Part shown: piece after piece, positions 10,205 to 54,830 of the stretch
How positions within the stretch are numbered: position 1 is the first letter of the stretch
How the letters are laid out: the number at the start of each line of letters is the position of its first letter
Assembly (NCBI GenBank): GCA_014654775.1
Contig: JACVZW010000009.1
Coordinates: 44,165-108,164 of the forward strand
Length of the DNA stretch: 64,000 nt
Origin: Paracoccaceae bacterium
GTDB lineage: Bacteria > Pseudomonadota > Alphaproteobacteria > Rhodobacterales > Rhodobacteraceae
Reading direction: 5' to 3'
The notes under the pieces: model-generated
Told to the model about the DNA's origin: nothing
Databases searched by the model: none
Seen by the model: only the letters and a program-made list of their open reading frames with translations
Made by a program: the position numbers and the translations under genes

Positions 10205-10489
10205 ATGACCGAAGCGGCGACATCGGCGGGCAGCGAAGGGCTGCGGCTGCTGGAGAATATCGGCGTGAAGCTGACGGTCGAGGTCGGCCGGGCCGAGCTG
10301 ACGATCCGGGATTTGCTAAGGCTTTCAGAGGGTTCCGTGATCGAACTGGACCGTCTGGCGGGTGATCCGCTGGATGTGCTGGTGAACGGCACGCTGATCG
10401 CCAAGGGCGAGGTGGTGATGGTGGGCGAACGCTTTGGCATCCGCTTTGGCCAGATCATCGACCCGGAAAAACGGGCGGAAAGCCTGTAA
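10205..10489 (+). CDS. fliN: Flagellar motor switch protein FliN
   Basis: This 94-aa SPOA-domain protein forms the base of the C ring with FliM. Typical features are VKLTVEVGRAELTIRDLL and the central GSVIELDRLAGDPLDVLVNG, followed by LIAKGEVVMVGERFGIR. The length is normal for the short FliN form. It ends 1 bp before the 62-bp dispersed repeat. Confidence 0.93.
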   Translation: MTEAATSAGSEGLRLLENIGVKLTVEVGRAELTIRDLLRLSEGSVIELDRLAGDPLDVLVNGTLIAKGEVVMVGERFGIRFGQIIDPEKRAESL

Positions 10490-10490
10490 C

Positions 10491-10552
10491 GGCTGTGCCC
10501 TGTTTTGTGCCGCAAACTGTGCAGCAAACTGTGGGCACAGAGCGCGCGGTGG
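10491..10552. repeat. 62-bp dispersed structured repeat, copy 1
   Basis: This segment recurs at 54161-54222 with 59 of 62 identical bases, in the same orientation. An 8-bp inverted repeat, CTGTGCCC (10493-10500) and GGGCACAG (10533-10540), encloses a loop with two direct GCAAACTGTG copies 12 bp apart. It lies between fliN and the minus-strand gene ending at 10573. It may be a REP-like element, an RNA structure or a protein-binding site; nothing in the sequence decides which. Confidence 0.85.
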
Positions 10553-10572: not shown

Positions 10573-10794
10573 TCAGGCGGCGTCGAGGGCCGCGAGGATG
10601 ATGCGGAAGGACTTGCTGCCGACCTTGGGCAGAAGCCGCAATTCGCGGATCAGCGCGGGCTGGGACATGGTGCGCACCTCTTCGACCGCGAGATCGAAGA
10701 AAGGGTGTTCGAGGGCGCGGCTGCTGGGAAGGCCGTCGATGCGGCGGGGGGCGATCAGGTCGCGCAAGGTGGGGGTGTGACGGGTTTTGGGCAT
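10573..10794 (-). CDS. Conserved-looking small hypothetical protein (73 aa)
   Basis: I do not recognise this gene. Codon third positions are overwhelmingly G or C, as in the surrounding genes, so it is probably real. The C-terminal half (about residues 48-73) reads LIRELRLLPKVGSKSFRIIL, vaguely reminiscent of a helix-hairpin-helix. There are no membrane segments or cysteines. It is on the opposite strand inside an otherwise co-oriented flagellar region, and its 3' end faces the 62-bp repeat. Its start lies about 165 bp from the fliO promoter, so the two are divergent. Confidence 0.65.
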   Translation of the reverse strand: MPKTRHTPTLRDLIAPRRIDGLPSSRALEHPFFDLAVEEVRTMSQPALIRELRLLPKVGSKSFRIILAALDAA

Positions 10795-16164: not shown

Positions 16165-17523
16165 TCAGGCCTTTGTCATCAGGGCGCGGCGGCGACGATC
16201 GACCGAAGAGGCGATGCGGAGCTGATCGCGATACTTTGCTACCGTCCGTCTTGCAAGCTGGATGCCATCTTCCTGCCCGATGATGCGAGCGATGATATCA
16301 TCCGACAGCGGCTCTTCGGGGTTTTCGGCGGCGATGAGTTTCTGGATGCGGTGGCGGATGGCGGCGGCGGAACCCGCCTCGCCCCCTTCGCCTTCGCGCG
16401 CGGCGAGGGCGGCGCTGAAAAAGCTTTTCAGCGGGAAGGTGCCCTGCGGCGTGGCGATGAGGATGCCCGAGCAGACGCGCGAGACGGTGCTTTCATGCAC
16501 GCCGATCGCTTCGGCCACTTCGCGCAGGACCATGGGGCGCAGGCGCGAGGGGCCGTGTTCAAGGAATTCGGTCTGGCGGCGGACGACTTCGGCGCCGACC
16601 TTGAGCGTGGTCTGGTTGCGGTGTTCCACCGCACGCGAGAGCCAGCGGGCGACCGAGAGGCGTTCGGAGACATAGGCGTTCGCCTCGATCCGGCGCAGGG
16701 CAAGGCGGCGGGCCTCGCCTTCGCGGACGACAACGGTGGGCAGGGTGGAACGGTTGAGATCCACGCGCCAGCCATCGGCCCCACGGGTGATGAGCAGATC
16801 GGGCGCGCGCTGCGGCATGGGCGTGCCGTCGAAGGTGGCGCCCGGCTTGGGGTTGAAGCTGCGGAGTTGGCGCAGCATCGCCTTGAGGTCTTCCATCGCC
16901 ACGTTGCAGACGCGGCAGAGGCCGCGCAGATCGGCCTGCGCCAGCATCGGCAGATTGTCGAGGAGCGCCGAGAAGGCCGGGGTGAGCAGGCCCTGATCGC
17001 GCGCCTGAAGGCGCAGACATTCCGCGAGGTTGCGGGCGAAGAGACCTGCGGGTTCCACCTGCTGCAGGCGGCGGAGGAGCGCCTCCACTTCTGCCTCGTC
17101 GACGAAGAGGCGGTCGGCGATGGCGGAAAGCGGCTGGCCGAGCCAGCCCGACGGTTCCAGCGCATCGAGGAAGGCTTCGGCCATCATCGACTCGCGCTGG
17201 GAGAGGCCGAGGCGGGCCACTTCGGCGGCGGCATGGGCATAAAGCGAGGGGCCGGGATCGGCAGCGAGTTGGCCGAGCTTGTCCCAGTCATCATCGCCGG
17301 AGCGGAGTTGGGACGGAAGGGTCAGATCGCGGGCGGGGCCAGCGGCGCGCGGCTGGGCCGAGCGGGCCCCGAGATCGAGGAAGGGATTTTCCTCGGCCTG
17401 GGATTCGATGAAGGAGGCAAGGTCGGTATTGCCCATCTGCAGAAGCTGGATCGCCTGCTGAAGCTGGGCGGTCACGACGACCGATTGGCGCTGGCCGATG
17501 GACTGGGACGTGAAAAGCTGCAT
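16165..17523 (-). CDS. rpoN: RNA polymerase sigma-54 factor RpoN (flagellar copy)
   Basis: This 452-aa sigma-54 has the N-terminal Gln/Leu-rich activator region (TAQLQQAIQLLQMGN, about 18-32), a core-binding domain, an HTH region with GVHESTVSR, and the RpoN box ARRTVAKYRDQL at about 424-435. I chose the ATG at 17523, which has an AAGGAG site; the ORF extends further without support. R. sphaeroides has several rpoN copies, and the one in the flagellar cluster (RpoN2) serves flagellar promoters. Its position here suggests the same specialisation. Confidence 0.92.
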   Translation of the reverse strand: MQLFTSQSIGQRQSVVVTAQLQQAIQLLQMGNTDLASFIESQAEENPFLDLGARSAQPRAAGPARDLTLPSQLRSGDDDWDKLGQLAADPGPSLYAHAAAEVARLGLSQRESMMAEAFLDALEPSGWLGQPLSAIADRLFVDEAEVEALLRRLQQVEPAGLFARNLAECLRLQARDQGLLTPAFSALLDNLPMLAQADLRGLCRVCNVAMEDLKAMLRQLRSFNPKPGATFDGTPMPQRAPDLLITRGADGWRVDLNRSTLPTVVVREGEARRLALRRIEANAYVSERLSVARWLSRAVEHRNQTTLKVGAEVVRRQTEFLEHGPSRLRPMVLREVAEAIGVHESTVSRVCSGILIATPQGTFPLKSFFSAALAAREGEGGEAGSAAAIRHRIQKLIAAENPEEPLSDDIIARIIGQEDGIQLARRTVAKYRDQLRIASSVDRRRRALMTKA

Positions 17524-53394: not shown

Positions 53395-54072
53395 TCAGCC
53401 TTGCGGGTAAGAGATCACTGACAGATAGCGGGCGGGCAGCTTGATGAGCACCTCGGGCCCGTGGGGGGCGTCGGCGTCGAAGAAGAGGCTGTCGCCCGGT
53501 TCGAGGTGATAGAGGGCGTCGCCGTGGCGATAGGTGACCTCGCCCTCCAGCATGTAGAGAAGTTCGATGCCGTCATGCTGAAAGGCGGGGAAGGTGTCGG
53601 ATTCCGCTGTCAAAGTAATGACATAGGGTTCGACCACCACGCCGGAGCTGTTTGATCCGATATGGCCGAGGAGGTGGTATTGATGGCCAGCGCGGGTGCC
53701 GCGGCGTTCGATTTCCAGATGCTCGCCTGCCTTCACATGCTGGCATTCGCGGCGTTCCTCATAGCCCCGGAAGAAAGAGGTGATGGGGGTGGAGAAGGCA
53801 TGCGACAGGATCTGGAGGGTGGTGAGCGAGGGCGAGGTGATGCCGTTCTCGATCTTGGACAGCATGCCGATGGAGAGGCCGGTGACAGCTGCGAGATCGG
53901 CCACGGTCATGCCTTGCTGACGTCGGAAGGCGCGGACGGAGCGGCCGATGGCCATTTCCAGATTGCGTTCGGCGAGTTCGCGGACGCGGTGGGGATCTTG
54001 GCTGAAAACGGGTTTGGATTTGGGGAGGACGGTGTCTGCTGTGGTGTCGGCAGCGCTGTCGAGTTCTTCCAT
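53395..54072 (-). CDS. XRE-cupin transcriptional regulator of the methylamine cluster
   Basis: This 225-aa regulator has an N-terminal HTH_XRE domain (about 42-98) with LAAVTGLSIGMLSKIENG and ITSPSLTTLQILSHAF. A C-terminal cupin (about 150-222) has GIELLYMLEGEVTYRHGD and LEPGDSLFFDADAPHGPE. The cupin probably senses a small ligand. It lies between the two halves of the methylamine cluster, so it likely controls them. A regulator of this type also heads glxABCD operons in rhizobia, from memory. Confidence 0.85.
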   Translation of the reverse strand: MEELDSAADTTADTVLPKSKPVFSQDPHRVRELAERNLEMAIGRSVRAFRRQQGMTVADLAAVTGLSIGMLSKIENGITSPSLTTLQILSHAFSTPITSFFRGYEERRECQHVKAGEHLEIERRGTRAGHQYHLLGHIGSNSSGVVVEPYVITLTAESDTFPAFQHDGIELLYMLEGEVTYRHGDALYHLEPGDSLFFDADAPHGPEVLIKLPARYLSVISYPQG

Positions 54073-54160: not shown

Positions 54161-54222
54161 GGTTGTGCCCTGTGTTGTGCCGCAAACTGTGCAGCAAACT
54201 GTGGGCACAGAGCGGGCGGTGG
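54161..54222. repeat. 62-bp dispersed structured repeat, copy 2
   Basis: It is identical in 59 of 62 positions to 10491-10552 and in the same orientation. The inverted repeat here is TGTGCCC (54164-54170) and GGGCACA (54203-54209); the outermost pair changed from C-G to T-G, which an RNA stem would tolerate. The two GCAAACTGTG copies are unchanged. It lies 42 bp after the mgdD stop and before the XRE regulator. Confidence 0.85.
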
Positions 54223-54263
54223 GTTCGGGATTTCTTTAAGGGGCGGTGGGGTGGAACCCCACC

Positions 54264-54830
54264 CTAGAAGGCCGACAGCGCGGCGGTTTCGAGCGCGTGG
54301 AAGACCGAGGCCGCCGAAGAGCGGGGGCCGATGACCGACAGATGACCGGGGGCGCGGATCACGATGTAGCAGCCCAGATGTTCGATCACCGTGCGGGTCG
54401 CCGCACCGGGGCCGTGGGCGCGCAGGTCGAAGGCGCAGAGGCGTTCAAACATCACGGGCAGGTCTTCGCCGGTCACGTCGAAGCGGGCCCAGGCGTCGGT
54501 CTGTTCGGTGAGGCTGGCCGCTTCGCCGAAATGGGGCTTGAGGCGGGCGACGATGTCTTCATGCGTGGCGAAGGGGGCCTCGACCATCCACATGTCGGGC
54601 GACAGCCAGAAGGCAGCGTAGGTCGCGCCTTGCGCGGCCTTGCCGGGGCCGGGGAGCGGGATGCCTGCGGCATCCGCGATATCGGTGATAGCCTTCGCTT
54701 CGCCCTGCCGCGCGGCGAGGGAGGCAAGTGCGGTGTCCGTGACTTCGGTGATTGTCACGGGGCCGAGGGTGACGCTGTGGGGGGCGTCATGTCCGAGCGG
54801 CGTGATGGGTTTCAGGCGGTGGTCAGCCAC
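54264..54830 (-). CDS. mgdD: N-methylglutamate dehydrogenase subunit D (SoxG-like)
   Basis: This 188-aa protein resembles the gamma subunit of heterotetrameric sarcosine oxidase, a GcvT-like truncated fold. Supporting segments are AAFWLSPDMWMVEAP and LEQTDAWARFDVTG-type spacing (here TEQTDAWARFDVTGEDL). Its C-terminus GCYIVIRAPGHLSVIGPRSS is typical. It overlaps mgdC by 8 bp and is the last mgd gene. Confidence 0.8.
   Translation of the reverse strand: MADHRLKPITPLGHDAPHSVTLGPVTITEVTDTALASLAARQGEAKAITDIADAAGIPLPGPGKAAQGATYAAFWLSPDMWMVEAPFATHEDIVARLKPHFGEAASLTEQTDAWARFDVTGEDLPVMFERLCAFDLRAHGPGAATRTVIEHLGCYIVIRAPGHLSVIGPRSSAASVFHALETAALSAF

Follow-up and report, generated by a model that had tools for sequence, protein, structure and literature searches.

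Dispersed repeats in bacterial genomes are mostly regarded as mobile debris. Among the closest described systems, REP/BIME sequences with their RAYT transposases are intergenic, enriched at gene ends and present as species-specific variants, and have been proposed to be protein-binding sites (PMC2817692). The STAR elements of staphylococci consist of short direct repeats, separated by variable spacers and clustered at interspersed intergenic sites, and their locations vary among species (PMC3532100). Orientation with the leading strand is a property of AIMS, including KOPS, which are octamers whose number and bias rise towards the terminus (PMC5993296), while IS200/IS605-type elements insert into the lagging-strand template (PMC6006769). 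The DNA uptake sequences of the Neisseriaceae are one signal with species-specific spelling, short and present in thousands of copies (PMC3630211).

Here we describe intergenic arrays of 12-bp direct repeats, two of which lie in the window, the whole stretch of 64,000 nucleotides that was analysed. The host genome (4.52 Mb, 93 contigs) belongs to the same genus group as Fuscovulum ytuae (Paracoccaceae). Like REP/BIME, the arrays combine about 100 intergenic copies (at least 71 in the host) with gene-end enrichment and species-specific variants. However, they are not palindromic as a family, do not alternate in orientation and have a strict GC-skew polarity, and no Y1 transposase was found in the two best genomes, nor was insertion polymorphism seen. 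They resemble STAR elements in being intergenic short direct repeats with variable spacers, but lie at the same sites across species (44 of 44, and 7 of 7 more) and have a fixed 12-bp period with usually four units. The leading-strand bias of AIMS and KOPS is shared by the arrays (71/71 copies, and 52/58 in agreement with GC skew, where the leading strand is assumed from skew), although each is a roughly 60-bp intergenic array, present in about 75-100 copies, rather than an octamer. Their copy number is far below that of uptake sequences. IS200/IS605-type elements also show replication polarity, which there comes from insertion into the lagging-strand template, but the arrays lack a transposase and conserved subterminal hairpins, and no mobility was seen. 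Searches of open-access papers found no repeat family described in these genera.

Two arrays in the window

The 62-mer at 10491-10552 has a second copy at 54161-54222, and the two differ at exactly three bases (C/T, T/G and C/G), in line with the three differences that the initial annotation had reported. Its description of the sequence also held: the 62-mer contains an inverted repeat (CTGTGCCC/GGGCACAG) and two copies of GCAAACTGTG, the C-to-T stem change between the two copies retains a G-U pair, and each copy is situated past the 3' end of a minus-strand ORF (10573-10794 for copy 1 and 54264-54830 for copy 2). The settings of the two copies differ, with copy 1 between convergent genes, a FliN-like gene on the plus strand that ends at 10489 and a 73-aa ORF on the minus strand (10573-10794), and copy 2 flanked on both sides by minus-strand genes, one at 54264-54830 and an HTH/cupin gene at 53395-54072. 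The 73-aa ORF, which adjoins the flagellar FliM- and FliN-like genes, is without a Pfam match. The features of the two copies, read from the sequence together with the comparisons named, are:

10493 to 10504, plus strand: copy 1, unit 1 (CTGTGCCCTGTT), with the 12-bp period seen across aligned copies
10505 to 10516, plus strand: copy 1, unit 2 (TTGTGCCGCAAA), its spacer being the fast-changing part of the family in the orthologue comparison
10517 to 10528, plus strand: copy 1, unit 3 (CTGTGCAGCAAA)
10529 to 10540, plus strand: copy 1, unit 4 (CTGTGGGCACAG)
10541 to 10552, plus strand: copy 1, GC-rich tail, also from aligned copies
54163 to 54174, plus strand: copy 2, unit 1 (TTGTGCCCTGTG)
54175 to 54186, plus strand: copy 2, unit 2 (TTGTGCCGCAAA)
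54187 to 54198, plus strand: copy 2, unit 3 (CTGTGCAGCAAA)
54199 to 54210, plus strand: copy 2, unit 4 (CTGTGGGCACAG)
54211 to 54222, plus strand: copy 2, GC-rich tail
54236 to 54239, no strand assigned: copy 2, TTAA box, 36 bp past the TGTG of the last unit, also from family-wide spacing peaks

Anatomy of the array

The unit is a 12-bp direct repeat beginning TGTG (mostly TGTGC), and the usual array has four units and then a GC-rich tail. In aligned copies the consensus units follow one another in 12-bp steps as CTGTGCCCTGTT, TTGTGCCGCATT, CTGTGCAGCAAA and CTGTGGGCAC, before the tail. Four units are found in 67/71 host copies and 47/58 F. ytuae copies, the remainder having two, three or five, and some orthologous copies of the two species differ by one whole 12-bp unit. 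Across 109 copies from two species, TGTG recurs exactly every 12 bp, and many of the blocks do not vary while the spacers do. Of 129 copies, 89 have a TTAA box 3' of the array, most often 30, 35 or 41 bp from the start of the last unit, and a second TTAA is often found 21 bp upstream; TTAA density at the box positions reaches 0.62 per copy per 10 bp, compared with 0.014 in other F. ytuae intergenic DNA.

Some arrays are paired in the same orientation, about 115-137 bp apart (host loci L008, L017 and L021; F. ytuae loci L182, L192, L208 and L257), and several of these are paired in both the host and F. ytuae. A sub-type common to both species has the end GTGTACATACAAATT in place of GTGGGCACGC, followed by GGTTAAGGGTGCG and GCACAG (host loci L064, L033 and L034; F. 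ytuae chromosome positions 959189, 3121731, 3269261 and 3400026).

The inverted repeat had been read initially as a structured stem. In 62 copies, no pair of this stem is changed on both sides, so there is no compensatory change, and pairing is lost at the outermost position in 46 copies and at one inner position in 21. Up to 60 host copies were folded as either strand, under RNA as well as DNA parameters, and their energies average near those of dinucleotide-shuffled controls (mean z between +0.4 and -0.8). Copy 2 has a minus strand that folds more stably than expected by chance (z -2.6), which is not general across the family. With these stem-pair counts and folding controls, the structural reading of the 62-mer fails. 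Rfam gave no match for the 62-mer, and the aligned copies have no conserved hairpin and no T-run. The array unit is a set of direct repeats, not a hairpin.

A family of intergenic arrays in the host and its relatives

A BLAST search of the host genome with the 62-mer gave at least 43 matches (40 of 98 candidates scored), with E-values for the other copies from 4e-24 to 5e-14, and a 19-mer taken from it occurs 91 times when up to three mismatches are allowed, compared with 10 for a reversed control. Recurrence of the 62-mer is therefore far beyond chance. Counted from the loci examined, the host has at least 71 distinct copies; a looser unit pattern gave 109 matches, with some arrays counted twice, and the copy number in F. 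ytuae is similar. The family comprises roughly 70-110 intergenic arrays per genome. With at least 71 copies in the host and conservation in relatives, the 62-mer is part of a genome-wide intergenic family, which supports the initial interpretation in part. A chance duplication, with two copies only and relatives without conservation, was rejected on the same copy number and on the conserved sites in relatives.

The relatives compared were G002, treated here as F. ytuae YMD61, and two further genus members, G009 and G012, which are apparently Tabrizicola sp. TH137 and Rhodobacter sp. CACIA14H1, respectively, since contigs recorded under these names contain the same sequences. Array matches also occur on the F. 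ytuae YMD61 plasmid NZ_CP124537.1 (169,107 bp), beyond which the plasmid records searched held none; the phage records searched had no match to the array. A pattern scan of genome contigs gave mostly chance matches in unrelated bacteria and true copies in TH137 and CACIA14H1, and in a set of 397 genomes, one for each genus of the bacterial family, only single matches were found outside the arrays' own genus.

Conserved sites and species dialects

Host copies were mapped onto F. ytuae. All 44 host copies with both flanks aligned to F. ytuae sequence (41 distinct pairs) have a counterpart of like orientation at the orthologous site, with no empty site among the 44 in the sequence examined. Seven arrays in aligned TH137 and CACIA14H1 contigs all coincide with F. 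ytuae arrays, again in the same orientation, and at one site, flanked by two genes that lie close together, an array is present in the host (G000), G002, G009, G006, G012 and G017. The Y1_Tnp domain (PF01797) is absent from the host and F. ytuae genomes, with a sub-threshold match only in G009. Without a Y1/RAYT transposase or empty sites, the REP-like option of the initial annotation finds no support.

In the 41 orthologous pairs from the host and F. ytuae, the TGTGC blocks are mostly 0.95-1.00 identical and the adjacent intergenic flanks about 0.70 identical, with higher identity in coding DNA further out, while two spacer positions are only 0.29 and 0.41 identical. The first spacer base, compared in 36 pairs, is G in 19 of the F. 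ytuae copies and in 0 of the host copies. Comparison of spacers and blocks at many fixed sites thus indicates that the spacers changed along one lineage and the blocks did not. We read this pattern as probable constraint on the TGTGC blocks together with some homogenisation among copies.

Other relatives have their own dialects: TGTGCCGGATGTTGTGCCGCAAACTGTG-like arrays in TH137 (156 matches), TGTGCCG.....TGTACCGCAAACTGT in CACIA14H1 (144 matches), TGTGCCGACGGTTGTACCGCAACCTGT in the genus member G006 (38 matches), and GGTGCAGACGGCTGTGCAGCAAAGTGTATGCACGCAGCG in the genus members G007, G018 and G017, with a similar form in G005; seven other genus members had no match to GGTGCAGACGGCTGTGCAGCAAAGTGTATGCACGCAGCG. 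Wherever checked, dialects in related species occupy the same sites. Dialects of this sort also occur in the Neisseriaceae uptake sequence (PMC3630211) and could point to a signal for uptake of self DNA, as in natural transformation. However, a family of about 100 copies rather than thousands, with a much longer unit and with a strict replication polarity and intergenic location that uptake does not need, makes this explanation very improbable.

Array orientation follows GC skew

Genomic context was analysed over 2.4 Mb (~62%) of the F. ytuae chromosome, with genes called by a codon-usage script. There, 57/58 copies are intergenic, and 29/58 lie between convergent genes, a class that makes up 94 of the 827 intergenic intervals with a length of 100 bp or more (Fisher p 7e-12). 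Another 10/58 copies lie between divergent genes and 19/58 in co-directional intervals, and many arrays begin within 10 bp of a stop codon. A transcription terminator or mRNA 3' element would fit these short distances and the half of the copies between convergent genes, but not the copies between divergent genes, the lack of a conserved hairpin or T-run, or the orientation in co-directional intervals, where 9 arrays point with the genes and 10 against them; we consider it quite unlikely. The small RNA or mRNA 3' element suggested initially is unlikely, because array orientation ignores the direction of flanking genes and follows GC skew.

GC skew of the surrounding 40 kb agrees with array orientation in 52/58 F. 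ytuae copies (binomial p 3e-10). In the host, the flanks of 71/71 copies show positive skew when read in array orientation, and in the window skew is positive throughout and both copies are on the plus strand. The skew is present in genes of both strands and in intergenic DNA, and therefore reflects replication, not transcription. Leading strands are as a general rule G-rich, and we infer that this holds in these genomes. Both dnaA and parB are inside the positive-skew arm, away from the skew switch; origin and terminus were placed from skew alone. Spacing of the arrays along the chromosome is slightly more even than random (CV 0.80, p 0.03), with fewer close neighbours than expected (p 0.004).

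Along the F. ytuae chromosome, local GC skew flips in an inversion-like manner in two regions (~0.3-0.4 Mb and ~1.43-1.46 Mb), and the arrays there flip too.

Putative directional binding sites

A directional binding array is the best account of the family, as it covers the phased invariant blocks and variable spacers, the fixed TTAA spacing, the polarity, an orientation that does not depend on transcription, and dialects that change while the sites stay fixed. We give an even chance to the proposal that the arrays are replication-oriented sites for a putative sequence-specific DNA-binding protein. Phased TGTGC units would be bound by this protein, acting at the DNA level, and their fixed orientation relative to the replication fork would give the site a direction; chromosome organisation, segregation or fork handling are examples of processes that could be served. 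From the nearly uniform orientation to replication, shared sites and species spellings, the arrays are probably landing sites for such a protein. We infer its binding, its co-evolution with the dialect and the process that it would serve. A protein-binding site is thus the best fit of the four options offered initially, with the binding protein itself putative.

The main rival is that the arrays are old non-autonomous mobile repeats. An ancestral element that used single-stranded DNA would have entered the lagging-strand template close to the ends of genes and later lost its transposase, with copies persisting through gene conversion. Insertion of this kind, known for IS200/IS605-type elements (PMC6006769), would yield the polarity, and small mobile repeats commonly favour gene ends and occur in pairs such as those seen here at about 115-137 bp, so that polarity and gene-end preference are accounted for without any function. 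The lineage-specific spacer variant suggests homogenisation, and the copy-to-copy homogenisation to which this F. ytuae variant points could preserve the blocks too, which counts against a binding array, as does the only mild evenness of spacing along the chromosome. However, 0/44 mapped sites are empty, neither the host nor F. ytuae has a Y1 transposase, and there is no conserved secondary structure. Gene conversion alone would not give near-invariant blocks beside variable spacers in the same 60 bp of one genome, and the preservation of those blocks at sites occupied before the species split is left unexplained. We regard the mobile origin as a serious but rather doubtful explanation.

The family holds its positions across species while its dialect changes, and takes its orientation from replication, not transcription. 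If the arrays are binding sites, an uncharacterised system would be reading the direction of the fork, at the DNA level, at about 100 places in each genome, and co-evolution with the dialects would offer a way to find the protein. More tentatively, the arrays may be an undescribed class of chromosomal signal in a genus group of Paracoccaceae, in which replication-oriented arrays of 12-bp sites stay at fixed positions while a putative DNA-binding protein changes specificity between species and the dialects change in step.

Three 50-kb blocks of the F. ytuae chromosome, at 1.20-1.25, 2.50-2.55 and 2.65-2.70 Mb, have a GC content of 0.57-0.58 compared with ~0.63 and are possible genomic islands. 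On the F. ytuae plasmid, the copy at 16936-17001 of NZ_CP124537.1 directly follows a ParB-like gene and precedes a convergent tyrosine recombinase gene.
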